NCBI RefSeq assembly: GCF_025979705.1 | Contig: NZ_CP110136.1 | Location: 3,038,001-3,102,000, forward strand | Direction of reading: 5' to 3' | Origin: Hymenobacter sp. YIM 151858-1 | GTDB lineage: Bacteria; Bacteroidota; Bacteroidia; Cytophagales; Hymenobacteraceae | DNA length: 64,000 nucleotides | In this document: positions 5,421 to 63,938 of the stretch, piece by piece | How positions within the stretch are numbered: position 1 is the first letter of the stretch | Layout of the letters: each line of letters begins with the position of its first letter | Made by a program: the position numbers and the translations under genes | Notes under the pieces: generated by a model | Told to the model about the DNA's origin: nothing | The model's database searches: none | The model's input: only the letters and a program-made list of their open reading frames with translations

Positions 5421-5761
5421 AAGCCCATCTGGTTTTGCTCCCTTTGCCCGGCTGGCTTGAACCAAAAGCAGACCGCCGGCAGCCTAGGTGCAGCACCCCC
5501 TAACAACCCTTGGGGCAGGGCACAAGTGGCCGCACGGCCCGGCATGCGGCCAGCTGCGCAGAACAACAACGCCTTGGCCAAGCTCGCGCTTGGGCACGTC
5601 GACGGTGAGGATGGCAAAGGCCGCTATGCCTAAGGCGCGTTTGCCGGCGCGGGCGCTCCTTACTGCTTGAGGCAACAGATGGGCGGGTAGTACAACCAAG
5701 CGCCCGTTGGGGCTCACTAAAGGCTCGTAAACGACTCAGCGCACAACCAGCTCACTTGAGC

Positions 5762-8572
5762 CTAAGCGCAGCCCAAATAGACGCGAAAGGTGGCGCCGGC
5801 GCCCTCCTGGCTCTGCACCTCGATGCGCCCGCCGTTGGCCTGCACGATGCGGTTTACGAGGTACAGACCTACGCCCGTACCCGCCGTGTGGGTGTGAAAG
5901 CGACGGAACAGGTGAAACAGCTCCGCGCCGTACTTCTCGGCATCGAAGCCCAGCCCGTTGTCTTGCACCACCAGCACGGGCTGCCCGCCCTCCAGCCACA
6001 TCGAGACGTGGATGCGCGCCGGCCGCTGCGGGTCGGCGTACTTGAGTGCGTTGCTCACCAGGTTAAGCAGGATGGTGCGCAGGTTGGCGCGAGCAAACGC
6101 CACGGTGGGGCGCACGCCAAAATCGGTGGTAAGGCGGGCGCGGGCAGCGCGTGCCTGCGGTTCGAGCGTGTTGAGTACTTCTTCGGTCAGATCCGCCAGC
6201 ACTACCGGCTCGGCCGGTGTTTCGCTTGCTTTCTGGGCCTGGCCCAGCACGGCCAAGTCCTCGATGGTGGTATTCAACTGCTGCACGGCCTCCTCCACCA
6301 TCCGCACCAGCAACTGCTCTTCAGCCGGGTCGGCGAAGGTAGCGGTACGGAGCAGCTCTTCCAGCAAGCCTGCAAGGTTGTGAACGGGCTGCTTGAGGTC
6401 GTGCGAGGCAGCGTACACGAAATTATCCAGGTCGCGGTTGGTGCGCGTAAGCTGCTCGTTGGCGTGCTTGAGGTCGGTGATGTCGATGGCTGAGCCCACG
6501 TAGCCGTACAGCTCGCCGTTGGGATAGAAGCTGGGTGCACCCTGCGACAGCAGCCAGCGATACTCGCCATCGTGGCGGCGCATGCGGTGCTCCAGCGTGT
6601 ACAGCGAGCGGGTGCGAATGGCCTCGCCCAAAGTGCGTTGGGCATGCTCGAGCTCTTCGGCCGGCAGATAAGCGGCCCAGCCCGTGGCCGTGTATTCCTC
6701 CACGCTCTTCACCCCCACGAAGTTCAGAAAGGCCTGGTTGGCGTAGCGAATGGTCGTGTCCGGCGTCACGGCCCACACTTGATTGGGCGCGGCATCGGCC
6801 ATGATGCGGAAACGGGCCTCGCTCTCGCGCACGGCCGCAATGGCCTGCTGCTGGGCTGTTACTTCGAACACAAACGCCAGGATGCCGTCTACCTCGCCGC
6901 GTTCGTCGCGACGGGCTTGGTAGACGAAGGTGAAGTACCGGTCTTCCAGCACGCCATCTGCTGGGCGCGCCAAGGGAATCCGCAGGGCCTGCTCCTCGTG
7001 GGTTCGGCCGGTAGCGTAAACCCCGCGCAGTATCCCGGCCACGGGGGTACCCGCAATTTCGGGCATGGCCTCGAAGATGGAGCGGCCTGCTAAGTCGCGC
7101 CCCGGCAGCAGCCGCTGGTAGCTGGGGTTCACGAACTCAAACACCAGCTCCGGCCCGGCCAGGATGCAAATGCCGGCGGGCGCCTGCTCGAAGACGGTGT
7201 ACAGCTTACGCTGCTGGGCCTCCCGCTCGTGGCGGGCCAGCACCTGCTCGGTTACGTCGTGGGCGAAAATGGAGATGCCCGCCACCGCGCCGTTTTCCTG
7301 GTAGGCCTGGTAGGTGAAGGTGAAGTACACGTCCTTGGCGGGCTGGCCGCCGAGCTGTTCCACCGTGAGCAGCACCTCCGTGCCGTAGAAGGTTTGGCCC
7401 GTCTGGTACACGTTGTTCATCCAGGCCACGAAGCCTTGCGCGGCGGTTTCGGGCAGGGCTTCGGCCAACGGCAGCCCCACCAGCTGCCGGCCCGGAAACA
7501 GCTGCTGGTAGGCGGCGTTCACGTACTCGAAGCGGTGCGCGGGGCCGCGCAGCAGGGCGATGCAGGCCGGGGTTTGCTCGAACACCTGAAAGAAGGTTTC
7601 GCGCTGCTGGGCCTGGTGCTGGGCGGCGGCCAGCAAATCGGCCTGCAGCGCCAGCGCCGCCTGGGCCCGCTCCTGCACCCGGGCTTCCAGCTCTTGGTTG
7701 AGCTGCTGCACTTGCTGGCGCGCCACCACCTGCGCCGTCACGTCGGTGCCCACGGTAAACAAGCCGCTGATGCCCCCATCGGGCCCACACAGCGGCTCGA
7801 ACACCGTGTTCCAGTACACCAGCTCCTGCCGGCCGTTGCGGTAAATGGTAGTGGGCTGCTCACTGGCCGTATGCGGGGTGCCCGTGGTGAACACCCGCTC
7901 AAAAATGGCCAGCACCTCGGGCGTGGCCGCCTCGGGCATCACCTCAAACACGGGGCGCCCAAGCACCGCATCCAGGGTGCGCCCCCAGATGGCCAGCGTT
8001 GTGGCGTTGGCCATGGCCACCTGAAACCGGGGGCCGTGGTACACGGCCACGGCCACGGGGGCTTGCTCGATAAAGTGCCGAAACTCGGTGCGCTGCTGCT
8101 CGGCGTCGGCGCGGGCTACTTGCTCGTTGGCTCGGCTTTCGCTTAGCTGCCGCTCGGCCAAGCGGCTGGCCGTAATATCCTGCACCGACTGAATGATGTA
8201 CTGCACCTGCCCGGCCGCGTCGAGCACAGGCGTGTGGCGCGCCTTCCAGTGGCGCTCCACAAAGTGTCCGGGCCGGGTGCGGTCGGGCACGTCGTAGTGC
8301 TGCGGAGCCATGTCGTGCGGCTGGCGGGTGGCCATTACCTGGGCCAGCGAGGCGCGCACGTTGGCCACGGCGTTGGCCTCGGGGGTGAGCGGGTTGTCGG
8401 GAAACGCCTCGAAGATGTACTGCCCGACGATAGTGGCCCGCTCGGTTAAGGTCGCGGCCAGGTAGTCGTCGCTGGCCCCCACAATCACCCATTCTGCTGA
8501 GAGCAACAGGGTGGCGCCGGGCTGGGCATTGAAGACGGACAGCCAGTCGGGCGGAGGCAGGGTCGTGGGCAT
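5762..8572 (-). CDS. Five-PAS hybrid-free sensor histidine kinase
   Basis: A 936-residue cytoplasmic kinase from the ATG at 8572. The in-frame ATG at 8650 is rejected because a TATCTTTG -7 box (8648-8655) overlaps it. Five successive PAS/PAC units are visible, each ending in a signature such as QDITASR, GTDVTAQ, AHDVTEQ, FEVTAQQ and IDITDLK. PAS3 and PAS4 are close relatives of each other (VFEQTPACIALL versus VFEQAPAGICIL). The HisKA phospho-acceptor is the His of ASHDLKQP. The ATPase domain shows the N box (NLVSNALKY), G1 (DNGLGFD), F box (LFHLFRRF) and G2 (GTGVGLYLV). There is no membrane helix or receiver domain and no adjacent response regulator. The gene contains no CCTAGG motif, unlike most genes here. 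Confidence 0.93.
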   Translation of the reverse strand: MPTTLPPPDWLSVFNAQPGATLLLSAEWVIVGASDDYLAATLTERATIVGQYIFEAFPDNPLTPEANAVANVRASLAQVMATRQPHDMAPQHYDVPDRTRPGHFVERHWKARHTPVLDAAGQVQYIIQSVQDITASRLAERQLSESRANEQVARADAEQQRTEFRHFIEQAPVAVAVYHGPRFQVAMANATTLAIWGRTLDAVLGRPVFEVMPEAATPEVLAIFERVFTTGTPHTASEQPTTIYRNGRQELVYWNTVFEPLCGPDGGISGLFTVGTDVTAQVVARQQVQQLNQELEARVQERAQAALALQADLLAAAQHQAQQRETFFQVFEQTPACIALLRGPAHRFEYVNAAYQQLFPGRQLVGLPLAEALPETAAQGFVAWMNNVYQTGQTFYGTEVLLTVEQLGGQPAKDVYFTFTYQAYQENGAVAGISIFAHDVTEQVLARHEREAQQRKLYTVFEQAPAGICILAGPELVFEFVNPSYQRLLPGRDLAGRSIFEAMPEIAGTPVAGILRGVYATGRTHEEQALRIPLARPADGVLEDRYFTFVYQARRDERGEVDGILAFVFEVTAQQQAIAAVRESEARFRIMADAAPNQVWAVTPDTTIRYANQAFLNFVGVKSVEEYTATGWAAYLPAEELEHAQRTLGEAIRTRSLYTLEHRMRRHDGEYRWLLSQGAPSFYPNGELYGYVGSAIDITDLKHANEQLTRTNRDLDNFVYAASHDLKQPVHNLAGLLEELLRTATFADPAEEQLLVRMVEEAVQQLNTTIEDLAVLGQAQKASETPAEPVVLADLTEEVLNTLEPQARAARARLTTDFGVRPTVAFARANLRTILLNLVSNALKYADPQRPARIHVSMWLEGGQPVLVVQDNGLGFDAEKYGAELFHLFRRFHTHTAGTGVGLYLVNRIVQANGGRIEVQSQEGAGATFRVYLGCA

Positions 8573-8647
8573 CGAGAAAAACGCAAATTCCCAGCAGCCT
8601 TTGCAGGAGCTACCCAGGCTCACGTAAAATGGCTGGTGCTGGCCCGC

Positions 8648-8655
8648 CAAAGATA
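8648..8655 (-). promoter_or_regulatory. -7 promoter box of the PAS kinase
   Basis: TATCTTTG on the minus strand matches TAnnTTTG, 76 bases before the chosen start. It also argues against the longer reading frame. Confidence 0.5.
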
Positions 8656-9046
8656 AAAATATGCTCCGGCGTGTAGGGAGCCGGCCAACGAAGCTTACGC
8701 GAAAAGTTCGTGGCTTTCAGAAATATGCACCCGCACGCCTTCCGGCATCTGCTCGCCCTTTCGAGGGCAACCCAGCGCGCCCGGCGCGGCTCTGCCCAAG
8801 CCGCGCCCTAGGTTTGCGCTGTGCTTAAGCCATTGGTCAGGAAGATTTCCCGGATGCGGTGGGGCGAAACGGAACAGGTGCGGCAAGCGCGCACCACGGC
8901 ACCCGTGCTGCGCAATTCCTTCAAAGGCACGGCTGGTTTGCGCCAAATTCCTGTTGCAATGCCCCTCTTCAGCCACTGCCTGATACCCATGCGCTGATGA
9001 CACTGGCTGCTGCCTGGAGGGCAAAGAATACCAAGCGCGATTTGCC
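8651..9046. other. Non-coding stretch, about 400 bases
   Basis: Between the PAS kinase and the LytTR regulator. It holds the PAS kinase promoter box and a CCTAGGT motif followed by TTG at 8807. I see no supported gene, tRNA or clear hairpin. Confidence 0.5.
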
Positions 9047-9775
9047 CTACTGCCAGCCCCGCAGCAGCTTGTAAAACGCGTCGGCGTAGGTGTCGCTGAT
9101 GGGGATGATCTGGTCGGCAATCTGAATTCGGTTTTTCTCGATGTGGTCAATTTTATCAATGGCGACTAGGAATGAGCGGTGCACGCGGGCGAAGTCCTGA
9201 GCGGGCAGCAGCTCCTCGAGCTTGGCAAAGCTCAGCAGCGTCATGATCTTCTCATCCGGGGTATGAATCCGTAAATAGTCTTTCATGCCCTCCACGAAGA
9301 GAATATCCCGGGTAGCCACTTTCTGAATGCGGTGGCCAACTTTCAGAAACAGGTACTCCTGCTCGTTCCGGCTATCGGCTCTTTCTACTGATTTGTGCGG
9401 GGTATACCTAGGACTTTGCTCCTGGTACAGGCGCAAAACGCTTCGGTAAAACCGCTCGAACGTGAAAGGCTTCAGCAGGTAGTCCCGCACCTCCAAGTCG
9501 TAGGCCTTCAGCGCGTACTGGTCGTAGGCGGTGGTGAGGATGATCAGGGGTTTGGGGCTGAGCATCGGGATGAAGCTGAGCCCGTCCAGATCGGGCATGT
9601 TGATGTCCAGAAACAGCAGGTCGGGCTGGTCGGCCTTCAGCGGCGCGGCGGCCTCCAAGGGGCTCATGAAAGTGCCTTTCAGCTCCAGAAACGGGACTTT
9701 GCGGATGTATTCCTCCAGGATTTCCTGGGCCAGGTGCTCGTCCTCAATGATGTAGCAAGTGAGCTTCTCTTTCAT
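9047..9775 (-). CDS. LytTR-family response regulator
   Basis: A 242-residue regulator started at the ATG at 9773-9775 (KEKLTCYIIEDEH); the longer in-frame reading would overlap the kinase gene by 100 bases. Receiver domain at residues 5-118: acidic pair E11-D12, phospho-acceptor D57 (FLDINMPDLDG), Thr81/82 and Lys102 (LLKPF). LytTR DNA-binding domain at about 140-238, with the typical FVEGMKDYLRIHT strand and FARVHRSFLVAIDKI. It is the cognate partner of the LytS-type kinase, whose gene it overlaps by 32 bases. The pair sits divergently beside an ABC transporter operon that it may control. Confidence 0.93.
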   Translation of the reverse strand: MKEKLTCYIIEDEHLAQEILEEYIRKVPFLELKGTFMSPLEAAAPLKADQPDLLFLDINMPDLDGLSFIPMLSPKPLIILTTAYDQYALKAYDLEVRDYLLKPFTFERFYRSVLRLYQEQSPRYTPHKSVERADSRNEQEYLFLKVGHRIQKVATRDILFVEGMKDYLRIHTPDEKIMTLLSFAKLEELLPAQDFARVHRSFLVAIDKIDHIEKNRIQIADQIIPISDTYADAFYKLLRGWQ

Positions 9776-10766
9776 GCGCCGGTGCGTGGAGGCCGTGGAT
9801 GGTGAGCGTGACCGTAAAGGTGTTGCCCGCGTCCTGAATGGCAAGCGTGTGCTGATCGGGATACAACAATGCCAGCCTTTTCCGGACGTTGGGCAAGCCG
9901 ATGCCGCCGGGTTCCTGCAGCGTAGCAGCCTGTCGGTTGCCGATGGGGTTCTGCACGCTGAAGGTCAGGTTGCCGGCTGCTACCTCCAGGCGCACTTTCA
10001 GGTCGCCGGGCCCGAGGCGGGCGGGGCTGTGCTTGTAGGCGTTTTCCAGCAGGTGAATGAACAGCAAGGGGGCAATGGAGCAGGCTTCAACATCTCCCGC
10101 CAGCTGCAGGTCGACCACCGGGTTGCTCCGGTACCGAAGCTGCTGCAAGCTCACGTAATCATGCAGGTAATCCATTTCCCGGGCCAGCGGCACCGTGGCC
10201 GCATTCGACTCATAAATCATGTAGCGCATCAACGAGGCCAGGTGCATCAGCGCCTCCGGGGCCGCGGGGGCTTGCTTGTATACCAGCGTGTGGATGTTGT
10301 TGAGGGTATTGAACAGGAAGTGCGGGTTGATTTGCGACCTCAGGTAGTGCAGCTCCGCCTCCACGGCCTGTTTCTCTAGCTGCTCTTTCCGGATGGTGTT
10401 GAGCACCAGCGTCTCGGTGACGCGGGCCAGCCAGCTCAGGAAGAGAAAGACGACGGCCGTAACGAGGTGCATCATGTACTGCCCAAAGTCGAACGGCTTT
10501 TGGTAGAAAAGGAAAAAAGGCAGCGGCCCGGTCAGGCCGATGCCCGGCAGCCGCAGCCAATAACCACGTCCTTTCGGCCTGCCGGAATACTGGGTTAGCA
10601 GGTAGAAATGGCCGTAAAAAACGTACAAACAGGTGGCTATAAACCCTTTGGTGGTGCTCACCCAATGGGCGTCGCCATCCGTGCTCAGCTGCAAGCCGAC
10701 CAATAAGGTGAATAAGACCCAGACGACGAGGTGAATCAGCCAGAAGATTCGTTTGACGCGCTCCAT
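9744..10766 (-). CDS. LytS/YehU-type sensor histidine kinase
   Basis: A 340-residue membrane kinase. Four hydrophobic segments lie in residues 8-113 (IFWLIHLVVWVLFTLLVGL; FIATCLYVFYGHFYLL; LPFFLFYQK region; MMHLVTAVVFLFLSWL), followed by a coiled linker. The His_kinase box is LRSQINPHFLFNTLNN, with phospho-acceptor His149. The C-terminal ATPase part has LLENAYKHSP (N box) and the reduced GGIGLPNVRKRL motif typical of this family. It pairs with the LytTR regulator, which it precedes with a 32-base overlap. No periplasmic ligand domain is present, so the signal is probably sensed in or near the membrane. Confidence 0.93.
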   Translation of the reverse strand: MERVKRIFWLIHLVVWVLFTLLVGLQLSTDGDAHWVSTTKGFIATCLYVFYGHFYLLTQYSGRPKGRGYWLRLPGIGLTGPLPFFLFYQKPFDFGQYMMHLVTAVVFLFLSWLARVTETLVLNTIRKEQLEKQAVEAELHYLRSQINPHFLFNTLNNIHTLVYKQAPAAPEALMHLASLMRYMIYESNAATVPLAREMDYLHDYVSLQQLRYRSNPVVDLQLAGDVEACSIAPLLFIHLLENAYKHSPARLGPGDLKVRLEVAAGNLTFSVQNPIGNRQAATLQEPGGIGLPNVRKRLALLYPDQHTLAIQDAGNTFTVTLTIHGLHAPAHEREAHLLHH

Positions 10767-11020
10767 AGCACAAAGGTGGGTTTTGCGGCGGTGGCCGGCG
10801 CCGGCGCCTCGACCAGTTGCCCGGGCTAATCTACGAGCGGGGCAAAGCAGCCGGCCAGCGCATTGGCGGAAGCAAAGCCCCGATTGGTCGATTACTTCGC
10901 GGCGCCAGCATATCCGTTTTCATCTTCCGATTTGGCAAGTGTTGCTTCGACCTGAAAGAGAAAGCATCAACCTAGGTGCTTTCCTCATTTCAACATACGA
11001 ACCGAAGCCAATCAGCTAAC

Positions 11021-11950
11021 ATGGGAATGCACCCGTTGGTCCTTACTATCCGCAACGTCTCCAAACGATATGCGAATGGCGTTCAGGCATTGGATAATGT
11101 GTCGCTGGATATTCCGCCGGGCATGTATGGCTTGCTCGGCCCGAACGGCGCGGGCAAGAGCACGCTCATGCGTACGCTCGCCACGCTGCAGCAGCCCGAT
11201 ACCGGCACCATCCACCTAGGCGACATCGATGTGGTGCACCAGCAGGAGGCGGTGCGCCAAACGCTGGGCTACCTGCCCCAGGAATTCGGCGTGTACCCCA
11301 AAGCCAGTGCGGAGGAGCTGCTCGACTACTTCGCGGTGCTGAAAGGCATTACCAACCGGGCGCTGCGCCGGGAAACCACCGAGGCCTTGCTGCGGCAAAC
11401 CAACCTGTGGGACAAGCGCAAGCAGAAGTTGGGCGGCTTTTCGGGCGGCATGAAGCAGCGGTTTGGCGTAGCTGTGGCTTTGCTGGGCAATCCTAGGTTA
11501 CTGATTGTGGACGAGCCCACGGCCGGCTTGGACCCGGCCGAGCGGGTGCGCTTCCTGAACCTGCTGAGCGAGCTGGGCGAAAACAGCGTGGTCATCCTCT
11601 CCACCCACATCGTGGAGGACGTGGCCGAGCTGTGCACGCGCATGGCTATCATCAACCACGGCCGGATTTTGCTCGAAGCCGAGCCGCTGCGCGCCGTGGA
11701 GCAGCTGCACGGCCGCATCTGGCGCAAGCTCACCGATAAACAGAGCCTGCCGACGCTGGAGCAGGAGCACCAAATCATTTCGGCTAAGCTGCTGAGTGGC
11801 CGCACCTTGGTGCACGTGTTCAGCCCGGAAACGCCCGGCCACGGTTTTGAGCCGGTGGCCCCTGAGCTGGAGGATGTCTATTTCAGTGCCCTGGCGGGCT
11901 GCTTCGGCCCGGCCAGTCGGCAGCTGCAAGCGGAGGAGGTAGCGCTATGA
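11021..11950 (+). CDS. ABC transporter ATP-binding protein
   Basis: A 309-residue ATPase from the ATG at 11021 (MGMHPLVLTI); an upstream in-frame ATG at 10976 is less likely because family homology begins after 11021. Walker A is GPNGAGKS (40-47), the signature FSGGMKQR begins at about 140, Walker B is LLIVDEP (160-166) and the H-switch is His196 (LSTHIVED). The C-terminal extension after residue 225 is typical of CcmA-like ABC-2 exporter ATPases. The stop overlaps the start of the permease-peptidase gene by four bases, so they are co-translated and form one transporter. The neighbouring LytS/LytTR pair is divergent and may regulate it. Confidence 0.93.
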   Translation: MGMHPLVLTIRNVSKRYANGVQALDNVSLDIPPGMYGLLGPNGAGKSTLMRTLATLQQPDTGTIHLGDIDVVHQQEAVRQTLGYLPQEFGVYPKASAEELLDYFAVLKGITNRALRRETTEALLRQTNLWDKRKQKLGGFSGGMKQRFGVAVALLGNPRLLIVDEPTAGLDPAERVRFLNLLSELGENSVVILSTHIVEDVAELCTRMAIINHGRILLEAEPLRAVEQLHGRIWRKLTDKQSLPTLEQEHQIISAKLLSGRTLVHVFSPETPGHGFEPVAPELEDVYFSALAGCFGPASRQLQAEEVAL

Positions 11951-49831: not shown

Positions 49832-49852
49832 CGGGTACGCACCTAGGTACGC

Positions 49853-51605: not shown

Positions 51606-53249
51606 TTACAATTTGGGCAGCCTGAAGTCGTCGAGGGCGCTGGGCTTGGCCATTAGCGCCTCAATATCGGCTACGGTGCGGGGCGCTTCCTTCGACAGGT
51701 TATCGTAGCCCGACGAGGTAATGAGCAGGTCGTCTTCGATGCGCACCCCGATGTTCCACCATTTCTTGTCGCAGGGGCTGCCCTCGGGGATGTAGATACC
51801 CGGCTCCACGGTAATCACGTTGCCGGCCTGCAGCGGGCCGTAGGTGCCGCGGTCGTGCACATCGAGCCCTAGGTAGTGCGAGGTGCCGTGCGGGAAATAA
51901 CGGCGCACCTCCGCATCGGTTTTGATGATGCCTAGGCGCTTCAGCCCCTCGGTAATTACGGCCTGCGCGGCTTTGTGCGGGGCCTGAAAATCGGCGCCGG
52001 GTTTGCACTCTTTGAAGCTGGCTTCCTGAGCGGCCAGCACTAGCTCGTAAATCTCGCGCTGCGCCGGCGAAAACTTGCCCGAAGGCGGTATGGTGCGCGT
52101 TACGTCGGCGGTGTAGCCGTGGTACTCGGCGCCGCAATCCATCAGCAGCAGCTCGTTGCCGATGCGCGGCTTGTCGTTGGTTTCGTAGTGCAGCACGCAG
52201 GCGTTGTTGCCGGCGCCCACAATGCTGGGGTAGCCCTCGAACTCGGCACCGTACTTTTTGTACACGTACTCGTGCAGGCCTTGTATTTCCATTTCGCCCA
52301 TGTCGGGCTTGGTGGCCTTCATCACCTCCTGCTGCCCCACTGCCGAAATGCGCACCGCTTGCCGCAGCAGCTTTATCTCCTCCGGCGTTTTCACTTCGCG
52401 CAGCTGGCTTAGCAGTTCGTCGAGGGTGGTGGCGTCGAAGCGCGAGGCCGGCCGCGAGGCTACCACCTTCTGCCGGTCGGCGTCGGTTTCGGCTTTCAGA
52501 TAGGCCTGTACGTAGGCATCGGCAGCCAGCTGGGGCTGCGAGGCTGCCATACCGGTGAGGTAAGGCCGCAGCTCGGCAGCGTTGGCGGTGCCGTAGCGCT
52601 GAATCATTTTGTGCGCTTCGCCTACGGCCGGGCTGAAATCGGCGGGCAAATTGGCTTTTTGCCGGAAACTGGCCACCAGGTCGGTGAGGTCGGCGGGGTT
52701 GCGCGGGTCGTTGGCAGCATCGGCCGGCAACGTCAGCATCAGCACCTGGCCAAAGCTGCCCCACTGAACGGGGGCCGCGGCAAACTCGGTGTTGTCGGCA
52801 GTGTACTGCAGGCCCAGTTGCTGCTTGGCGCCGTCCTTACCTAGGCGGCGGCCCGTCCACATTTCGCGGGCGGCGTTGCGGGGCTGCACGTACAGCGCCT
52901 CCGTTACTCCGGTTTGGCCGCCCAGGTTCTGCGGCTCTTTGAACAGCACGAGCACGGCATCAGGCTCGGTGTAGCCCGTGAGGTAGTACAGGTCGGGGTG
53001 CTGGTGGTAGATGTAGCTGACGTCGTTGGCGCGGTTGCGCACCGGCGCGGCAAACAGCACCGCTACCGAGCCGGCGGGCATTTGCTGGCGCAGCAGTTCG
53101 CGCCGCCCCTTATGAAAGGCAGGGCTTAAAAAATCGGTGGGGCGCTCGGGGCTGGCCGGCCGCTGGGCCTGGGCAGGTTCGAGGCCCAGAGCACCTAGGC
53201 AAAGCAGGGCGAAAGCTCCTTGGCGGAGCCACAACGGGGTTCGGAGCAT
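51606..53249 (-). CDS. Exported M24 Xaa-Pro aminopeptidase
   Basis: A 547-residue metallopeptidase from the ATG at 53249, with a signal peptide (LRQGAFALLCLGALGLEPAQA). The creatinase-like N-domain (residues 30-300) precedes the pita-bread catalytic domain. Metal ligands: Asp in MDCGAEYHGYTADVTRTI (two), His in HGTSHYLGLDVHD, Glu in VEPGIYIPEG, and Glu in VRIEDDLL. It removes N-terminal residues preceding proline. It probably acts outside the cytoplasm. It separates rpmB from rpmG; a long hairpin lies between it and rpmB. Confidence 0.93.
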   Translation of the reverse strand: MLRTPLWLRQGAFALLCLGALGLEPAQAQRPASPERPTDFLSPAFHKGRRELLRQQMPAGSVAVLFAAPVRNRANDVSYIYHQHPDLYYLTGYTEPDAVLVLFKEPQNLGGQTGVTEALYVQPRNAAREMWTGRRLGKDGAKQQLGLQYTADNTEFAAAPVQWGSFGQVLMLTLPADAANDPRNPADLTDLVASFRQKANLPADFSPAVGEAHKMIQRYGTANAAELRPYLTGMAASQPQLAADAYVQAYLKAETDADRQKVVASRPASRFDATTLDELLSQLREVKTPEEIKLLRQAVRISAVGQQEVMKATKPDMGEMEIQGLHEYVYKKYGAEFEGYPSIVGAGNNACVLHYETNDKPRIGNELLLMDCGAEYHGYTADVTRTIPPSGKFSPAQREIYELVLAAQEASFKECKPGADFQAPHKAAQAVITEGLKRLGIIKTDAEVRRYFPHGTSHYLGLDVHDRGTYGPLQAGNVITVEPGIYIPEGSPCDKKWWNIGVRIEDDLLITSSGYDNLSKEAPRTVADIEALMAKPSALDDFRLPKL

Positions 53250-53317
53250 AACAAAAGCCGCAGCGAGGCAGGTGCGTAGTACGGTAGAGCAGAATAGTTG
53301 CGCAGCTAAAGCCAAAG

Positions 53318-53799: not shown

Positions 53800-53967
<168 letters not shown>

Positions 53968-54663: not shown

Positions 54664-55926
54664 ATGTCAGTTAGCACGCCTCCCGCTACCGCCGCCCCCA
54701 TTCAGCTGAGCAGCCAAGACCTGATGCAGCTCGAAGACCACTACGGTGCGCACAACTACCACCCCCTGCCGGTGGTGCTGAGCCGCGGCGAAGGCGTGCA
54801 CCTGTGGGATGTGGAAGGCAAGCACTACTACGATTTTCTGTCGGCGTACTCGGCCGTAAACCAGGGCCACTGCCACCCGCGCATCATTGGCGCGCTTATC
54901 GAGCAAGCCCAGAAGCTGACGCTTACCTCGCGGGCCTTCTTCAACGACCAGCTGGGCCGCGCCGAGAAGTACCTGTGCGAGCTGTTCAACTACGACAAGG
55001 CCCTGCTGATGAACTCGGGCGCCGAGGCCGTAGAAACTGCCCTGAAGCTGGCCCGCCGCTGGGGCTACGAGCAAAAAGGCATTGCGCCCAACCAGGCACG
55101 CATCATCGTGGCCGAGCACAACTTCCACGGCCGCACCACGGGCATCATCTCCTTCAGCACCGACCCCGACAGCACCGGCGGTTTCGGGCCTTACATGCCC
55201 GGCTACCAAGTGGTGCCCTACGACGACCTGGCCGCCCTCGAAGCCGCCGTGCAGGAGCCGCACGTGTGCGCTTTCATGGTTGAGCCCATTCAGGGCGAAG
55301 CGGGCGTGGTGGTGCCGTCGGATGGCTACCTGGCCCACGCGCACGCCATCTGCAAAAAGCACAACGTGCTGATGATTGCCGACGAGATTCAGACGGGCCT
55401 GGGCCGCACCGGCGAGCTGCTGGCCTCGTGCTACGAGGGCCTGCACGCCGACATCCTGATTTTGGGCAAAGCCCTGAGCGGCGGCGTGCTGCCGGTGTCG
55501 GCCGTTTTGGCGCGCAACGAAATCATGCTGGGCATTAAGCCCGGCCAGCACGGCTCCACCTTCGGCGGCAACCCGCTGGCTTGCGTGGTGCTGATGGCGG
55601 CGCTCGACGTGCTGCTCGAAGAAAAGCTGACTGAAAATGCCCGCGCCCTAGGTGAGGTGTTCCGCGAACGGATGCGGCGCCTGCAAGCCAAGCGCCCCGA
55701 GGTAGTGGAGCTGGTGCGCGGCAAAGGCCTGCTGAACGCTGTGGTAATCAAGCCCGCCCCCGACGGCCGCACCGCCTGGGATGTGTGCATGACGCTGATG
55801 GAGCGCGGCGTGCTGGCCAAGCCCACCCACGGCGACATCATCCGGTTTGCCCCGCCGCTGGTGATTACCGAGGAGCAGCTGCACGAGGCCTGCGACATCA
55901 TCGAGCAGGTGATTATGGCGTTTTAA
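54664..55926 (+). CDS. rocD: Ornithine--oxo-acid transaminase
   Basis: PLP class-III aminotransferase converting ornithine to glutamate semialdehyde. 420 residues. Motifs: [96 protein letters not shown], and the PLP lysine in [13 protein letters not shown]. The NYHPLP segment is typical of ornithine rather than acetylornithine aminotransferases. It stands alone with its own promoter and a terminator that contains a CCTAGGT motif. Confidence 0.95.
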
Positions 55927-57217: not shown

Positions 57218-57242
57218 CACGTAGGGCTCTGGCCACCGACTT

Positions 57243-57250
57243 TATCTTTG
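57243..57250 (+). promoter_or_regulatory. -7 promoter box of hemB
   Basis: TATCTTTG (TAnnTTTG), 21 bases before the hemB ATG. Confidence 0.55.
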
Positions 57251-57271
57251 CCCCGCTGAACTACCTTTCCT

Positions 57272-58264
57272 ATGGCTCTAATCCCCACCCACCGCCCCCG
57301 GCGGAACCGCAAGTCCGACGTCATCCGCAACATGGTGCAGGAAACGACGCTGTCGGTGCACGACTTTATTTTCCCGCTGTTTCTCATCGAGGGCGAAAAC
57401 AAAACCGTTGAGGTAACGTCGATGCCGGGCATTCAGCGCTTTACGGCCGACCGCCTTCTTGATGAAATCGGCCAGTGCGTCGACCTAGGCATCAAAGCGT
57501 TTGCCCCGTTCCCGAGCATCGACGACCGCCTGAAGGACCGCCTGGCCAAAGAAAGCCATAACCCCGACGGGCTGTACGTGCGCACGGTGGAGCGCATCAA
57601 AAAGGCATTTCCGGAGGTGGTAATCATGACCGACGTGGCCATGGACCCCTACTCCTCCGACGGCCACGACGGCATCGTGGACCCCGACTCGGGCGAAATC
57701 ATGAACGACGCCACGCTGGAGGTGCTCGGCCAGATGGCCCTGGCCCAGGCCCGCGCCGGCGCCGATATCATCGGCCCATCGGACATGATGGACGGCCGCG
57801 TGGCCTGGATTCGCGACGTGCTCGACCGCAACGCCTTTTCGCACGTGAGCATCATGAGCTACACGGCCAAGTACGCCTCGGCGTTCTACGGCCCCTTCCG
57901 CGACGCCCTAGGTTCGGCCCCGAAAAAGGGCGACAAGAAGAGCTACCAGATGAACCCGGCCAACCGCCGCGAGGCCATCCGGGAGCTCCGCCTCGACGAG
58001 CAGGAAGGCGCCGACATGGTGATGATTAAGCCCGCCCTGAGCTACCTCGACGTGATTCGGGACGTGCGCGATAACACCACGCTGCCCGTAACGGCCTACA
58101 ACGTATCGGGCGAGTACGCCATGGTGAAAGCCGCCGCTCAAAACGGTTGGGTCGACGGCGAGCGGACCATGCTGGAAGTGCTGATGAGCATTAAGCGCGC
58201 CGGCGCCGACGCTATCCTGACGTACTTCGCCAAGGAGGCCGCGCAGGTTCTGCGCCGCGGTTAG
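57272..58264 (+). CDS. hemB: Delta-aminolevulinic acid dehydratase (porphobilinogen synthase)
   Basis: Condenses two 5-aminolevulinates to porphobilinogen in heme synthesis. 330 residues. Motifs: RRNRKSDVIRNMVQETTLSV, FPLFLIEGENKTVEVTSMPG, MTDVAMDPYSSDGHDGIV, SDMMDGRVAWIRDVLD, YTAKYASAFYGPFRDAL, and the Schiff-base lysine in MVMIKPALSYLDVIR. The metal region DPYSSDGHDG has Ser/Asp/His where the zinc type has cysteines, so it is the Mg/K-dependent type. A hairpin follows the stop. Confidence 0.97.
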   Translation: MALIPTHRPRRNRKSDVIRNMVQETTLSVHDFIFPLFLIEGENKTVEVTSMPGIQRFTADRLLDEIGQCVDLGIKAFAPFPSIDDRLKDRLAKESHNPDGLYVRTVERIKKAFPEVVIMTDVAMDPYSSDGHDGIVDPDSGEIMNDATLEVLGQMALAQARAGADIIGPSDMMDGRVAWIRDVLDRNAFSHVSIMSYTAKYASAFYGPFRDALGSAPKKGDKKSYQMNPANRREAIRELRLDEQEGADMVMIKPALSYLDVIRDVRDNTTLPVTAYNVSGEYAMVKAAAQNGWVDGERTMLEVLMSIKRAGADAILTYFAKEAAQVLRRG

Positions 58265-58282
58265 CCGTAAATTCTCCGAGCG

Positions 58283-58321
58283 TTGGGCAAACTTGGCGAA
58301 ACAGTCGCTGGGTTTGCCCAA
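58283..58321 (+). terminator. Likely terminator of hemB
   Basis: A 10-bp stem TTGGGCAAAC with its complement over a 19-base structured loop (GGCGA/TCGCT inside), then ATTTCGTTTTCC. Confidence 0.55.
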
Positions 58322-58346
58322 TTTCGTTTTCCATATGCCCTGTTTT

Positions 58347-58859
58347 ATGCCTATCCGCTTACTTATTCTGCTGGCAGCCGCCGGCTTGTGGCTGCGCCCC
58401 ACCACCGGGCGGGCTCAGGCGCAACCGCGCACGGCGCCGGATACCATCTCGCTGGAAGACGCCATTGGCGCGCACAACGAACGCGCCACCCGCCACAACC
58501 GCATGCTGGCGGCCTACAACGAGGCCCAGCAGCACACGCAGCAGGCCATTACCCAACTGAACGCGTTTTTCGACTACTACAACCACCAGTTTCAGCCCCG
58601 CAAAACCGACGCCCAGCTGCAACAGATGCTGCCACCCGTGGCGGCCAGCTTGCAACGAGCCCGGAGTATTTTGGCCACGGTGGTGTTTGAGGACGAAACG
58701 CGCCAAGCCTCCGTGCGCGAACTAACCGCCGTGGTGCACCGCGCCGAAACCCGCTTGCGCAACAGCCAGGCTTTTTTGGCCCGCTACCTGCGCACCAGCG
58801 CCGCCCAGCGCCCGGTGTTGTTTACTACCCGCGGTGGGCCCAACGAAATGACTCGCTGA
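58347..58859 (+). CDS. Hypothetical exported helical protein
   Basis: A 170-residue protein from the ATG at 58347 (alternatives 58335 and a TTG at 58293). A signal peptide (IRLLILLAAAGLWLRPTTGR) is followed by a helical, His/Gln-rich region likely to form coiled coil (NRMLAAYNEAQQHTQQAITQ, then LQRARSILATVVFEDETRQA). Unrecognised. A periplasmic role is inferred from the signal only. Confidence 0.6.
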   Translation: MPIRLLILLAAAGLWLRPTTGRAQAQPRTAPDTISLEDAIGAHNERATRHNRMLAAYNEAQQHTQQAITQLNAFFDYYNHQFQPRKTDAQLQQMLPPVAASLQRARSILATVVFEDETRQASVRELTAVVHRAETRLRNSQAFLARYLRTSAAQRPVLFTTRGGPNEMTR

Positions 58860-58946
58860 GCCTCTTTTCTCCACGGGGCGCGGGAGTACCTAGGGGCGCA
58901 AACCGGCCAGCTGGTTAGCTGCTTGCAGGGTGCCGACCCGTTTTTT

Positions 58947-59648
58947 TTAAAGGGCATTGGCCACGAAGTGCATCAGCTGGCGCACGCCCGCAAACAGCTC
59001 GTCGAGCTGGTAGCTCATCAGGAAGAAGCCTACGTAAAATGCACTCTGATGCTTGTAGTGCCATTGCACCACGGGCAGCCAGTAGCGTTGGCGCACGGCC
59101 GGCAGGTTGGACGCCACGCCCGTAGCCACCCCAATAATGCCACCGGCCACCAAATCGGTGGGGTAATGCAGCCCTAGGTAGAGGCGGGGCGCACAGATAA
59201 AAAACACCACGTAGAGCAGCGAGGCCACCCCAATGGGCCGCGACAGGAACAGCATGCCGGTGGCCAGGGCGAAGAAGATGGTGGCGTGGTCGCTCGGGAA
59301 TGAGCTGTTGTCGGCCGAGTCGGCGAGCAGCTGCGCGTGTACGGGCTCGAGCTGCAGCTCGGTATTGTGCAGGGGGCGCGGCCGCTCCGGGAAAATGTGC
59401 GTGAGCGTGCGGGTAACGGCCATGCCAATAAAACACCCGGCCAGCACGCCAATTACGATGCTGCGGCAGGCGTTGCCGCTGGGCGTGTTGCCGCATTTAA
59501 ACCACGTCCACCACAGCACCACCGTAAACAGGGCACCTTTCAGCAGGTTGTTGTAGCTCAGAAAATCGATGAACGTATCGAACAGAGCCGATTGGTGCAC
59601 ATACTGGTTCAGGCCTTCCAGGATAACGCGGTCGAAAGCTGGTAACAT
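58947..59648 (-). CDS. PAP2-family phosphatase
   Basis: A 233-residue membrane phosphatase from the ATG at 59648, with about five helices. PAP2 motifs: ERPRPLHNTE (KxxxxxxRP), SSFPSDHATIFFAL (PSGH, here PSDH), and PRLYLGLHYPTDLVAG (SRxxxxxHxxxD). These dephosphorylate undecaprenyl pyrophosphate, PG-phosphate or related lipid phosphates; the exact substrate is unknown. It is probably transcribed alone. Confidence 0.92.
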   Translation of the reverse strand: MLPAFDRVILEGLNQYVHQSALFDTFIDFLSYNNLLKGALFTVVLWWTWFKCGNTPSGNACRSIVIGVLAGCFIGMAVTRTLTHIFPERPRPLHNTELQLEPVHAQLLADSADNSSFPSDHATIFFALATGMLFLSRPIGVASLLYVVFFICAPRLYLGLHYPTDLVAGGIIGVATGVASNLPAVRQRYWLPVVQWHYKHQSAFYVGFFLMSYQLDELFAGVRQLMHFVANAL

Positions 59649-59817
59649 GGCGCATGGGTGGGTAAAGGGTGGTACGAGGCGGGGCAACAACATACATAAT
59701 TTAATAATTAATAATTGTTTAATGATAGTTTATTTGAATTGTTCTTCCGAAAAGTTACGCCCCTGATATGCCCGCGCAGCTATCCTACAGCCCGCAATCA
59801 ACCGCATTAAGGCCTGT

Positions 59818-61197
59818 TTAATGCCGCCCGAAAGGCCAGCGGCCCTGCCGCGAGTTGCTGATCAGAAATACCATTACGCCCACCGCAATAACGGTCAGGC
59901 CCGAAAGCATAAACGAGAGCCCGGTGCTCCACAAAACCAGCAGCCACACCACCACCGCTACGATTACCGGCAAAGGGTATAGCGGCATCCGGAAGGGCAA
60001 ACCCGCAGTGCCGCGCCGGCGCCGCAGCAGCACCAGCCCCACGGCCTGCCCCACAAACTGCACCAGGATGCGCATGGCCAGAATGGCACTGATGACCTCG
60101 GAAAGCTTGAACAGCAGGCTAAACACAAACCCGGCCCCGCCCAGCACCAGCAACGACACGTACGGGAAGTGCTTGGTAGGATGCAGGCGCGCAAACACCG
60201 GCAGAAACTCGCCATCGGCAGCGGCGGCGTACGGAATGCGGGAGTAGCCCAGCAGCACCGCAAACAGCGAGGCAAACGCCACCCACAGCACCAGCGCCGT
60301 GGCCGCCAATGCGGCCGTGTGCCCAAACAGGCGCTCCACAAAGGTGCTTACAATGAACTCCGACTGCGCTGCCTCGGCCCAGGGCAGCACGCGCGCTACG
60401 CTGTAATTAAGCAGCAGGTACAGCACGGCAATGCCCAGAATACTCAGGAAAATAGCCCGCGGAATAATGCGCGCCGGCTGCCTGATTTCGGCCCCTAGGT
60501 GGCACACGTTGTAGTAGCCCAGGTAGCTGTAAATGGTTTTGACGCTGGCCTGACCCAGGGCCAGCGCCGGCAGCACAAACCAGCCCTTGGCGGCATCGGC
60601 CGCGGCTACGGGCGTGAGCGGCGGAAACGGCACGGCCTCGCGGCCCAGCAGCAGGCCGCTGGCAATGAGGCCCACCAGCAGCACCAGCACCCCCACCCAC
60701 AAGGCCACGCCCAGCTTGCCCACCGAGCCAATTCGCCGGTACAGCAGCGCCACCAGCAGCAGCACTACCGTGCCGCTTACCAGCTTGGGCTGCCACCACT
60801 CGGGCAACGGCACCAGGTAGGCAAAGTACTGCGCAAACCCTATGGCCCCCGAGGCCACCACCAGCGGCGCCTGCACCAGGGTTTGCCACACGTACAAAAA
60901 CGACATCAGGCGGCCCCAGGTATGCTCGCCGTAAGCCAGCTTGAGGAAGCGGTACGAGCCGCCGGCCTCGGGGTACGCCGCGCCCAGCTCCGACCAGATC
61001 AGCCCATCGACCACCGAGAGCACCGCCCCCGCCACCCAGGCCCACATAAAGTACGGCCCGAGCAGCTGCATTATCAGCGGCAGCACCACAAACGGCCCAA
61101 TGCCCACCATATCAATCATGTTGAGGGCTGTGGCCTGCAGCAGGCCCAGCTCGCGGCGCAGCGTATCGGTGGGGTTGGTGGTAGAGGTATCGGGCAT
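59818..61197 (-). CDS. APC-family amino acid permease
   Basis: A 459-residue inner-membrane transporter with about 12 helices. N-terminal LRRELGLLQATALNMIDMVG is followed by IGPFVVLPLIMQLLGPYFMW; other family segments are YPEAGGSYRFLKLAYGEHTW and YLGYYNVCHLGAEIRQPARI. The AGGSYRF/AGAEIRQP-type motifs place it in the APC/LAT branch. The substrate cannot be told. It stands alone; CCTAGGT encodes part of the helix-6 region. Confidence 0.93.
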   Translation of the reverse strand: MPDTSTTNPTDTLRRELGLLQATALNMIDMVGIGPFVVLPLIMQLLGPYFMWAWVAGAVLSVVDGLIWSELGAAYPEAGGSYRFLKLAYGEHTWGRLMSFLYVWQTLVQAPLVVASGAIGFAQYFAYLVPLPEWWQPKLVSGTVVLLLVALLYRRIGSVGKLGVALWVGVLVLLVGLIASGLLLGREAVPFPPLTPVAAADAAKGWFVLPALALGQASVKTIYSYLGYYNVCHLGAEIRQPARIIPRAIFLSILGIAVLYLLLNYSVARVLPWAEAAQSEFIVSTFVERLFGHTAALAATALVLWVAFASLFAVLLGYSRIPYAAAADGEFLPVFARLHPTKHFPYVSLLVLGGAGFVFSLLFKLSEVISAILAMRILVQFVGQAVGLVLLRRRRGTAGLPFRMPLYPLPVIVAVVVWLLVLWSTGLSFMLSGLTVIAVGVMVFLISNSRQGRWPFGRH

Positions 61198-61439
61198 AAG
61201 GGCGGCGGTAGAGAGGCAGGCCTTGAAGCGAAGTAACTGCTGTGGCGCAGCCAGGGTTTAGACGCGCCTAGTCCCGGCAGGGTTGGTGTCGAAAGCCGTG
61301 CTAATATTGCCGCTTCTGCCGCTGTGCCCGTGCGGCTTGCGCGGTGCCGTGCACTACAGCAGCCCCTAGGTGCGTTTAGCCTGTGGCCTGGGCATGGGGC
61401 GCGGCTTACCTTTACCCTGCAAGGCGAAACCTTTAGTTC

Positions 61440-62168
61440 ATGAAATACCCTGTATTGATGGGGGCGCTGGCAGCCCTGTTGCTGAGCGCAACTGCCCCCG
61501 CCGTGGCCCAAAAGGCCAAAACCAAAGTAAAAGGCGCCGGTGCGGCCGAGCTGTCGGTGGCGGCGCGGCGGCTGTTGCCGCTGTTTGGCGGCCTCACGCC
61601 GCAAGCCGCTCAGCAACTGGTGGGCGAGCCGTACCTCAAAGGCCTGGAGCAGAGCTTTCCGTCGCGGGCCGAGGCTAGCCAGTTTTTCGCCAACAAAGGC
61701 TACGAATACCTCACCGAGGGCCAGGCCGATACGGCCCGCTACCGCTTTAACCTGGCCTGGCTGCTCGATCCTAAAAACCCCGAAGCCTACCGCGGCCTGG
61801 GCTTGCTGGCCGCCACCACTTCGCCCGATCAGGCCATCGGCTTGTTCGGGCAAGGCCTGGCGCTGGCTCCCAACAATGCCCAGCTGCTTACCGACCTAGG
61901 CAGCAGCTACCTGCTGCGCTACAGCCAAACCAAAAAGGCCAAAGACCTGAAGACGGCCGAGGAGCAACTGCGCAAAGCCCTGGCCGCCGATGCCAACAGC
62001 GCCTACGCCTGGCAGCAGCTGGCGTGGGTGCAGTACTACCAAAACGAGTATGCCGGGGCCTGGGAGTCGTTGCACAAGGGCAGCACGCTCAATTTCAGCG
62101 GCGTCGACTTTGAGCTCGTAACCAGCCTCAAGGACAAAATGCCCGACCCCAAGGGCTTGTTTAAGTAG
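61440..62168 (+). CDS. Exported TPR-repeat protein
   Basis: A 242-residue protein with a signal peptide (KYPVLMGALAALLLSATAPA) and a helical domain with tetratricopeptide-like repeats: ASQFFANKGYEYLTEGQADT, ARYRFNLAWLLDPKNPEAYR, GLGLLAATTSPDQAIGLFGQ, and LRKALAADANSAYAWQQLAW. Such proteins scaffold envelope complexes. The partner is not evident. It precedes the beta-barrel gene on the same strand by 71 bases, with a weak hairpin between. Confidence 0.85.
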   Translation: MKYPVLMGALAALLLSATAPAVAQKAKTKVKGAGAAELSVAARRLLPLFGGLTPQAAQQLVGEPYLKGLEQSFPSRAEASQFFANKGYEYLTEGQADTARYRFNLAWLLDPKNPEAYRGLGLLAATTSPDQAIGLFGQGLALAPNNAQLLTDLGSSYLLRYSQTKKAKDLKTAEEQLRKALAADANSAYAWQQLAWVQYYQNEYAGAWESLHKGSTLNFSGVDFELVTSLKDKMPDPKGLFK

Positions 62169-62190
62169 GCCGCGGCCCCTTACTCACAAC

Positions 62191-62221
62191 GCAGCCCGCG
62201 CCGCTGGCGTAAGCGGGCTGC
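62191..62221. terminator. Weak hairpin between TPR and beta-barrel genes
   Basis: A 9-bp stem GCAGCCCGC with its complement and a 13-base loop; no clear T run. Confidence 0.4.
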
Positions 62222-62239
62222 TTACCATTCCTCTCCTAC

Positions 62240-62956
62240 GTGCGCATCACCAACTTATTGCTCGGGGCGGCCTTGTTGGCGCCGCTGGCAGCCGCGGCCC
62301 AGGCCCCGCGCCGCCACTTCGACGCGCAAGGCCGCGCTTTCTTCCGCGGGCCGTTGCGTCTATCGGCAGGGGGCGGCATTGCCCTGTACAACGGCGACCT
62401 GACCGCGAGCCTGGGCGACAACTTTATCGGGCCGGCCGGGCAGCTGGGCCTGATCTACACCTGGCGCCCGCACTGGAGCGTGGGCGGCGAGGCCACCGCG
62501 TTTCAGATCGGCGCCCGCGACCAACTGCCCGAGCGCAACCTGGCCTTCAGAGGCAACAACCTGGCCGTGGCAGCCTTTGTGCGCTACGAGCCCCTGCGCG
62601 ACCCATCGTGGTACGCCGGAACGCGCAACCGCTTTGCCCCTGTAAAGCCTTTCCTGAAAGCCGGGGTGGGCTACCTGCTGTACAACCCCAAGGCCTACAA
62701 CGGCACCGAGCGCCCCACCAACTCCACCACTTACCTTGCGGCCGAGCGCCCCGACTACACCGCCACCGCCATTACCATACCCGTGGGCGGCGGCCTGTCG
62801 TTTTTCCTGACGCGGCGGTTCTGGCTTACGGCCGAGGCAGCGTACGGCTTCACCACCACCGACCACCTCGACGACATCAGCCAGCGCGGCAACCCCGACC
62901 GCAACGACGGCTACGGCACCGTTACCCTGAAGCTCGAGTATCAGCTAGGTGAGTAG
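62240..62956 (+). CDS. Outer-membrane beta-barrel protein
   Basis: A 238-residue exported protein from GTG 62240. Signal peptide: ITNLLLGAALLAPLAAAAQA. The mature part alternates strands typical of small porin-like barrels (LRLSAGGGIALYNGDLTASL; GQLGLIYTWRPHWSVGGEAT; FFLTRRFWLTAEAAYGFTTT; TVTLKLEYQLGE) and ends in an aromatic-rich strand. Likely an outer-membrane structural or porin protein of unknown specificity. Confidence 0.85.
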   Translation: MRITNLLLGAALLAPLAAAAQAPRRHFDAQGRAFFRGPLRLSAGGGIALYNGDLTASLGDNFIGPAGQLGLIYTWRPHWSVGGEATAFQIGARDQLPERNLAFRGNNLAVAAFVRYEPLRDPSWYAGTRNRFAPVKPFLKAGVGYLLYNPKAYNGTERPTNSTTYLAAERPDYTATAITIPVGGGLSFFLTRRFWLTAEAAYGFTTTDHLDDISQRGNPDRNDGYGTVTLKLEYQLGE

Positions 62957-62965
62957 GTGGGGTTT

Positions 62966-63148
62966 GGTAGTTGGTATTGAGTATTCAGTAGTGAGCACTG
63001 AGCACCAAATCACGACGACCTGATGTTACTGCAACTACCGATACAAGTTCGCTCAGGCAGCCTTTCGCCGTTGCAGGCTCACTTGCCGCGCCGCACAAAC
63101 CATGCTTCATACTGAGTACCAAATACTAAGTACTCAATACCAATTGCC
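62966..63148. repeat. Inverted word-repeat pair before the SDR gene
   Basis: TTGGTATTGAGTATTCAGTA at about 62968-62987 is largely complementary to TACTAAGTACTCAATACCAA at about 63124-63143. Words such as AGTACTGAGTACC recur between. It fills the SDR upstream gap. Confidence 0.55.
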
Positions 63149-63152
63149 CACT

Positions 63153-63938
63153 ATGCCTTTTCCCGCTGATGCGGCCACGCGGTGGTCGTTGCAAGGCCGT
63201 GTTTTTCTGGTAACGGGCGCTTCGGCCGGCATTGGCGCGGCGGTAGCGGCCGAGCTGATGGGTTTTGGCGCCACGGTGGTAGCGGCCGCGCGCCGGCCCG
63301 AGCCGCTGCAGCAGGCCGTGGCCGCTTGGCAGCAGCAAGGCCTCGATGCCCACGCCATGCCCGCCGACGTGAGCACGCCCCTAGGTCGGCAAACCCTGGT
63401 GGAGCAGGTGCAGGCGCAGTTTGGCCGGCTCGATGGGCTGGTAAACAACGTAGGCACCAACATCCGCAAGCCCACCACGGCCTACTCCGACGACGAGTAC
63501 CGCCACGTGATGCAAACCAACCTCGATTCGGCTTTTCACCTGTGCCAGTTGGCCCACCCCTTGCTGAAAGCCAGCGGGCAGGGCAGCGTGGTAAATATTT
63601 CGTCGGTGGCGGGGCTTACGGCTGTGCGCACCGGCGCCGTGTACGCCATGACGAAAGCTGCTATGGTGCAACTCACGCGCTACCTGGCTGCCGAGTGGGC
63701 CCCCGATGGCATCCGGGTAAACTGCGTGGCGCCGTGGTACATCAGCACGCCGCTGGCCGCCGGGGTGCTCAGCAACGAGAGCTACCTGCAAGAGGTGCTC
63801 GGCCGCACGCCCATGCGCCGCATCGGCGAGCCGCACGAAGTAGCCGCGGCGGTGGCTTTCCTGAGCCTGCCCGCCGCCAGCTACATCACCGGCCAGACGC
63901 TTTCGGTTGACGGAGGCTTTGTGGGCTACGGTTTCTGA
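63153..63938 (+). CDS. Short-chain dehydrogenase/reductase
   Basis: A 261-residue SDR from the ATG at 63153; a longer frame from 63102 has its extra residues encoded by intergenic word-repeats. Cofactor motif TGASAGIG, then NNVGTN, catalytic Ser/Tyr/Lys in [20 protein letters not shown], and the C-terminal [12 protein letters not shown]. It resembles tropinone-reductase/gluconate-5-dehydrogenase-type SDRs; the substrate is unknown. It is the last gene; the final 62 bases show nothing. Confidence 0.92.

Follow-up and report, generated by a model that had tools for sequence, protein, structure and literature searches.

The window analysed here is the whole stretch of 64,000 nucleotides from Hymenobacter sp. 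YIM 151858-1, and the subject of this report is a field of copies of the word CCTAGGT, or ACCTAGG when read on the opposite strand, which extends from position 5483 to 63386. The field, to which no strand is assigned, holds 73 occurrences over both strands at 67 sites, and is preceded by an island that lacks the word. The window has a GC content of 62.3% and contains 103 copies of CTAG, of which 70 lie within CCTAGG (first at 5483, last at 63380) and 33 outside that context. ACCTAGG was counted 35 times and CCTAGGT 38 times, both together at 6 sites, so that 67 of the 70 CCTAGG sites are extended. A first-pass annotation of this DNA had given about 70 copies, 67 of 70 extended and about 33 other CTAG, all of which the recount reproduces; its expectation of about 22 copies of CCTAGG becomes 21.4 when recomputed from composition, and 14.2 or 11.2 under an order-1 or order-2 model. 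Ranked by order-2 z score, CCTAGG is the highest 6-mer of the window and ACCTAGG the highest 7-mer, with 73 copies on both strands against 4.8 expected, while GCTAGC stands at 6 against 29.

The enrichment is genome-wide and specific, as had been claimed, and present in both orientations. The 4,621,779 bases of the three contigs hold 2,561 forward and 2,535 reverse copies of CCTAGGT, 5,096 in all or one per 907 bases. The reversed control word TGGATCC has 28 copies genome-wide, and is itself avoided; this word, which holds a BamHI site, is strongly depleted in coding sequence (3 copies against 34.8 after synonymous shuffling in 513 kb). Genes were called with a simple codon-usage caller built for the analysis, and coding fractions are therefore approximate. 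In a sample of 464 kb the density is 2.18 per kb in noncoding and 0.85 per kb in coding DNA, with 173 coding copies in sense and 140 in antisense orientation. As the annotation had noted, copies in genes are read mostly as CTA-GGN, encoding Leu-Gly (291 of 313). This is the one feature that would suit an origin in codon usage or chance; that explanation is refuted here, and retains next to no probability, by the 425 copies in 513 kb of called coding sequence against a mean of 16.5 after synonymous-codon shuffling (maximum 20 in 10 shuffles), by the antisense copies, by the higher noncoding density and by the restriction of the word to 8 of 204 genomes of the family.

The wordless island (1–5482, no strand assigned) encodes a helix-turn-helix plus S24-peptidase protein of repressor type (2882–3631), an S24-like protein (1037–1831) whose weak match falls just under the Pfam cut-off, and an HNH endonuclease (3592–4308), and because of these three it looks phage-derived. 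The absence of CCTAGG, claimed earlier, is exact, and about 6 copies would be present in 5.5 kb at the genome rate. However, the island's own composition predicts only 0.7–1.8, so that the absence is meaningful only against the genome rate. The island was excluded from the counts of sampled copies, spacing and flanks. In 40 kb sampled from the two small, plasmid-like contigs of the same genome (C2 and C3; 158 and 101 kb) there is a single copy, and in plasmid-like contigs from the near-complete genomes of two other carriers there is none (G004 C2 and C3, 40 kb; G123 C2, 20 kb).

The flanks of noncoding copies show a graded preference for G, C on either side of the word, giving GC-CCTAGGT-GC. 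In 644 kb of the window's genome the octamer ACCTAGGG (CCCTAGGT) lies 33-fold above order-1 expectation, followed by ACCTAGGC (10-fold), ACCTAGGA (7.9-fold) and the full palindrome ACCTAGGT (4.5-fold); the palindrome occurs 19 times and ACCTAGGG 443 times, so the favoured form is not the palindromic one that characterizes highly iterated palindromes (HIPs). The annotation was thus right that a real word is enriched, but the unit is not the palindrome CCTAGG: in the window's genome it is the asymmetric CCTAGGT with its GC-CCTAGGT-GC flanks. One palindromic copy lies at 49841–49848 (no strand assigned); it is one of 6 in the window, and the form is kept in Solirubrum puertoriconensis. Among nine enriched genomes examined, the top CTAG-containing octamer is palindromic in five (ACCTAGGT in G030, G036, G104 and G123, CCCTAGGG in G072) and non-palindromic in the window's own genome, G004, G005 and G088. 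Words one letter away from CCTAGGT are mostly at 0.72–1.51 of expectation, 18 of 21 reaching at least 0.72; CCTAGAT, CCTAGCT and CCTAGTT are at 0.30–0.40, and the three last-letter variants are 3.8- to 15-fold enriched, partly as shifted readings of the word itself.

The arrangement of the copies bears on terminators and on replication-oriented signals. Stretch L038, with 1 copy in 20 kb, was omitted from the neighbour and spacing counts. Pairs no more than 60 bases apart among 499 gaps comprise 20 of type '-+', 10 '+-', 5 '--' and 1 '++'; the '-+' class includes ACCTAGGT palindromes, 13 in a slightly larger set. Inverted pairs as terminators were rejected on these counts, and close inverted pairs are no notable feature of the copies. 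By halves of the sampled chromosome, all copies divide as +118/-86 and +108/-135, a weak bias that could follow gene orientation, while noncoding copies divide as 43:39 and 41:57. The noncoding copies thus show no clear strand bias, which speaks tentatively against replication-oriented signals of the KOPS and Chi kind.

The same split weighs on the idea that the word acts like Chi, halting degradation by a RecBCD/AddAB-type nuclease and starting recombination, so that incoming DNA bearing it is recombined more often. Chi words are likewise asymmetric 5–8-mers that differ between species. A PDDEXK_1 domain (PF12705) gives one strong match in each of 24 genomes, in frames of 984–1,218 residues in 23 of them and 388 in G092, and the protein is probably AddB-like to judge from this domain. 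It is present in carriers and non-carriers alike, however, and the enrichment of CCTAGGT exceeds the levels known for Chi. On balance a Chi-like role seems improbable.

The distribution of the word among relatives is patchy. In what follows the window's genome is G000, and its relatives include S. puertoriconensis (G005), Hymenobacter edaphi (G002), H. busanensis (G001), Hymenobacter sp. CRA2 (G006) and H. cavernae (G030). The eight CCTAGGT-rich genomes of the family hold 5,096–8,746 copies each, the next highest 666. Three (G000, G004, G005) belong to the window's own genus and five (G030, G036, G088, G104, G123) to a second one. The comparison of Hymenobacter species proposed in the annotation therefore places the word in the window's clade, but in only three of the eight genomes of the genus (35–93 copies in the other five) and five others of the family. 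A tree of the aminotransferase gene was built from 51 of 80 named loci, L122 as family outgroup, the window and G004; the 29 named loci left out are all from outside the family except L104. In this tree the window, Solirubrum and G004 form one clade (100/100) nested among non-carriers of the genus. Alignable DNA is 80–83% identical between sister carriers and non-carriers.

Orthologous sites allow the states before the gain to be read. We compared 264 kb of the window's genome with its relatives, of which 218 kb aligned with G004, 197 kb with Solirubrum, 134 kb with H. busanensis and 141 kb with H. edaphi; alignments below 150 columns were dropped from the comparison of identity and aligned length, and unaligned or gapped sites from the site comparisons. 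The three carriers have 73–115 copies per 64–80 kb and 244–274 per 200 kb, the non-carriers 0–5 per stretch. At carrier sites, 498 readings from non-carriers (several genomes per site) differ from the word by 0, 1, 2, 3, 4, 5 or 6 letters in 1, 88, 157, 174, 52, 22 and 4 cases. Over 13 sites in more distant Hymenobacter, only 6 of 280 readings show the word, and H. cavernae, whose enrichment is independent, accounts for 3 of the 6. Non-carriers are mostly one to four letters off and the distant species seldom have the word, so the alignments show it to be derived in the window's clade, gained on the stem that G000 shares with G004 and Solirubrum.

Individual copies illustrate this. Within a class-III aminotransferase gene (54664–55926), the copy at 55647–55653 (+) corresponds to CCTAGGC in Solirubrum, CCTGGGC in four of five sister species and CCTAGGT in H. 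cavernae. An M24 peptidase gene (51606–53315) has two: that at 51868–51874 (+) is kept in Solirubrum and reads CCGAGGT in all five sister species compared, and that at 53193–53199 (-) is also found in Solirubrum, with the four aligning sister species two to four letters off. At 57907–57913 (+), Solirubrum keeps the word and the sister species have GCTGGGC (three), CCTCGGC or GCTGGAC.

Among the carriers, the 338 sites aligned in all three have the word in three genomes (123), two (104) or one (111). The conservation of sites in orthologues that the annotation had proposed to examine is borne out as an excess of sharing: pairwise retention is 0.63–0.72 for the word, 0.39–0.43 for words one letter away (CCTAGGG, CCTAGGC and CCTAGGA being dropped from these controls) and 0.45–0.48 for permutations. 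Nineteen single-step gains come from CCTGGGT (6), CCCAGGT (5), CCTAGGC (4), GCTAGGT (2), CTTAGGT (1) and CCTAGGG (1), 16 of them transitions; a further 11 gains require at least two changes. The gain ratio is 2.44 (19 observed and 7.8 expected once an ad hoc factor of 0.6 is applied), and 17 of 456 controls reach this value. On a terminal branch, about 2.3–2.9 sites are gained per permuted control word (1,448, 1,585 and 1,851 single-step gains over 629 words). Substitution counts were taken from overlapping 7-mers on both strands of the aligned window genome, G004 and G005 (L159–L166, L202–L230). In the same alignments GC-to-AT and AT-to-GC changes number 5862:1812 in Solirubrum and 4240:2580 in G004, and are balanced (2772:2950) in the window's own line.

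CCTAGGT is one of several such words in the Hymenobacteraceae. A screen of 53 named family loci, each of at most 21 kb, found TAGGCCA in H. wooponensis and H. fodinae, CTACCCC in H. latericoloratus and Hymenobacter sp. HSC-4F20, ACCTAGG/AACCTAG in H. cavernae, and AAGTATA or AACTATA in 10 of 11 Pontibacter loci, P. ummariensis having no word; the word of G072 is CCCTAGGG. At this depth, nothing comparable is seen in most of the remaining Hymenobacter loci. When 241 genomes of the order were drawn, one from genus g6 (G168) had 11,674 copies of AACTATA in 4.1 Mb and the four others drawn from that genus 644–1,179, and none from outside the family was comparably enriched. The dialect words are alike in being denser in noncoding than in coding DNA and in lying on both strands, and within a dialect retention between relatives is 0.54–0.83 against 0.29–0.43 for permuted words, higher in all 14 comparisons. 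On the one-gene tree the five dialect groups require four changes, the minimum, and thus follow clades: AACTATA, TAGGCCA and CTACCCC take one change each with high support, AAGTATA one change at 81/80 that encloses the wordless P. ummariensis, and CCTAGGT has two origins, in the window's clade and in H. cavernae. AACTATA and AAGTATA are one transversion apart, both occur in one genome (L116), and some sites have switched in place: the other Pontibacter word stands at the orthologous site in 8 of 28 (L117 to L114), 3 of 32 (L115 to L113), 4 of 34 (L126 to L114), 8 of 25 (L114 to L117) and 3 of 28 cases (L113 to L126), with the same word kept in 2, 4, 2, 1 and 8.

Three side observations came from the same loci. 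H. telluris (L077) has 19 copies of CTCACCA against 2.1 expected in 21 kb, possibly a further dialect. Hymenobacter sp. BT188 and H. qilianensis (L106, L109) are rich, mainly outside genes, in words such as CCCCCAG and AAAAGCC/AAAGCCC; these are distributed as dispersed intergenic repeats would be and are of a different kind. GATC is missing from 20–21 kb stretches of G088 (L064), G072 (L069) and H. properus (L125; 0 against 40 expected), so that extreme GATC avoidance differs among related species.

A local mutational or repair bias could write the word directly and leave it without function. The gains by transition would suit such a bias, as would the near-exponential spacing and the dense noncoding copies (as many as 34 in 3.6 kb of Pontibacter burrus), both expected of a process blind to its neighbours, and the low counts of CCTAG[ACT]T, possibly consumed precursors, though other CTAG words are scarce too. 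But the single-step gains start from six words and involve five of the seven positions, sister states such as CCGAGGT need transversions as well, most one-off words stand near expectation, and the plasmid-like contigs of the same cell are almost free of the word. We regard this explanation as unlikely.

The search for machinery covered methylation, the annotation having offered biased mismatch repair at a methylated site. PF00145 was not found in six of the eight carriers, PF01555 in five (G004, G030, G036, G104, G123), PF02384 in G005, or PF02086 in any of the eight; PF01555 is present in G000 and G005, and PF02384 in G000 and G004. None of these four methyltransferase families is common to the three related carriers (other families, e.g. 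PF07669, were not searched), and the methylation-repair idea is therefore unsupported. Repair of methylated cytosine of the Vsr type was rejected as a general cause on the distribution of PF00145, Vsr itself not having been searched.

These results bear on a HIP-like explanation, in which a methyltransferase recognizes the word and methylation-directed mismatch repair retains the mutations that complete it (Elhai 2015 model). The density of about one copy per 900 bases lies within the HIP range of 500–2,500 per Mb, and alternate words replace one another in related cyanobacteria (PMC4390886); the palindrome that tops the octamers in five of the nine enriched genomes points the same way. Against this stand the four families that fail to track the word and the non-palindromic form of CCTAGGT in the window's clade, TAGGCCA, CTACCCC and AACTATA. 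A HIP-like origin is thus rather unlikely.

Competence genes, whose comparison the annotation had proposed, give a divided picture: a ComEC-type Competence domain (PF03772) occurs once, stop-free, in each of 20 genomes, but in wordless genomes as well, and no type IV pilus ATPase was found in the 22 genomes of genera g1 and g4. Two genomes of genus g6 match PF00437 below the cut-off only. Genes present in both related carriers and missing from the incomplete outgroup stretches number 2 of 58 and 30 of 172 called genes (264 kb), with no evident uptake, restriction or methylation gene among them by eye, from the first 60 residues. One gene at about 1796178–1797293 of C1 (L207), which all three carriers have and the compared outgroup stretches lack, resembles on visual inspection a spore photoproduct lyase, which would be an enzyme of DNA repair.

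Taken together, the explanation we favour, at a probability of about 45%, is that CCTAGGT (GC-CCTAGGT-GC) is a clade-specific self-recognition word that acts like a DNA uptake sequence (DUS). A putative protein would read the whole word in one orientation and favour word-bearing DNA during uptake or recombination of DNA from relatives; because such DNA is favoured, mutations that complete the word would tend to spread in the population. We infer uptake or recombination to be the step that drives this. The known type IV pilus machine is an improbable place for the putative reader, since the ATPases of that machine were not found in these genomes.

Several results weigh against this explanation. 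Close sister species are nearly without the word. No match to the T2SSE/PilB-type ATPase family PF00437 was found in the 22 genomes of genera g1 and g4 (ComP was not searched), ComEC is equally present in carriers and non-carriers, and no receptor was found. The open-licence literature, as far as searched, yielded no report of transformation in Hymenobacter or of an uptake word in Bacteroidota, the only paper to surface on Hymenobacter competence and on words in Pontibacter and Hymenobacter being one on LexA; nor was a paper found there on CCTAGG or the methylome of Hymenobacter, or, in titles and abstract beginnings of the broader HIP and dialect literature, a description of such words in Hymenobacteraceae. 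The spacing of copies is near exponential (CV 0.955, 499 gaps) and not even, and most cross-dialect sites hold neither word. An 89 kb contig of the draft Solirubrum genome is as word-rich as the chromosome (27 copies in 20 kb), and the word-poor plasmid-like contigs may just be recent.

The evidence for maintenance is likewise limited. Given agreement between two relatives, retention in the third is 0.745–0.81 for the word against 0.66–0.73 for one-off and 0.71–0.73 for permuted words, a modest excess, and in pooled retention 73 of 236 permutation controls are kept at least equally well. Single-step losses outnumber gains in G004 (21:6) and Solirubrum (19:11), 40:17 in sum, against 3,007:3,436 for permuted controls (loss-to-gain ratios of 0.94 in G004 and 0.82 in Solirubrum), so that the drive is weak or off on these two terminal branches. 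For the window's own branch the figure is 31:2, which mixes losses on its own line with gains on the branch common to the other two carriers, because the tree groups these two together. The force that wrote the words has weakened since the stem branch, on which it was strong.

To our knowledge, no uptake or recombination signal sequences are known in this phylum. It is possible, at odds slightly below those of the favoured explanation, that the Hymenobacteraceae have a dialect-changing self-recognition word system that depends neither on type IV pili nor on the tested methyltransferases and represents a further, separate origin of uptake or recombination signals. If so, the gain, stability and switching of such words can be read from sister species. 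How HIP1, DUS and the uptake signal sequence (USS) arose has long been asked, but is difficult to study where the words are old; here, because carriers and non-carriers are sister species, pre-gain states are readable and sister clades have different words, origin, dialect change and loss become directly testable. If the word bars gene exchange, it would be a device of genetic isolation in a widespread environmental lineage.

Chi has been compared above. Among the other known systems, HIP1 and the alternate HIPs share with the words described here a density of about one copy per kb, the likeness the annotation had drawn, the use of different words in related genomes and, in G030, G036, G104, G123 and G072, a palindromic favoured form; they differ in being tied to methyltransferases, whereas here the four families do not track the word and several words are non-palindromic. 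The USS of Pasteurellaceae is comparable in density and asymmetry, but has two long-lived types across its family, against at least five words in one family here. The DUS of Neisseriaceae is 10–12 letters long and also occurs as thousands of asymmetric copies on both strands, with clade dialects one transversion apart, two dialects in a genome and a short common core, CTG in DUS and CTA in most words here. Unlike DUS, our words have 7–8 strict letters, come without a detected type IV pilus ATPase, are patchy within a genus and lack a universal core (AAGTATA has GTA), and uptake is here presumed. Within the same phylum, Riemerella columbina is reported to take up its own DNA preferentially, and frequent A/T-rich words whose function is unproven have been listed for it (PMC7965970). 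For Neisseriaceae, PMC3630211 describes single transversions between dialects, two dialects per genome and as many as 5,918 copies in 2.4 Mb, and holds that biased uptake and recombination yield such patterns. The asymmetry, graded flanks, clade dialects, one-transversion pairs and partial in-place switching found here fit biased uptake or recombination as described there, and overall the pattern is closer to the Neisseriaceae dialects of uptake sequences than to HIP1.

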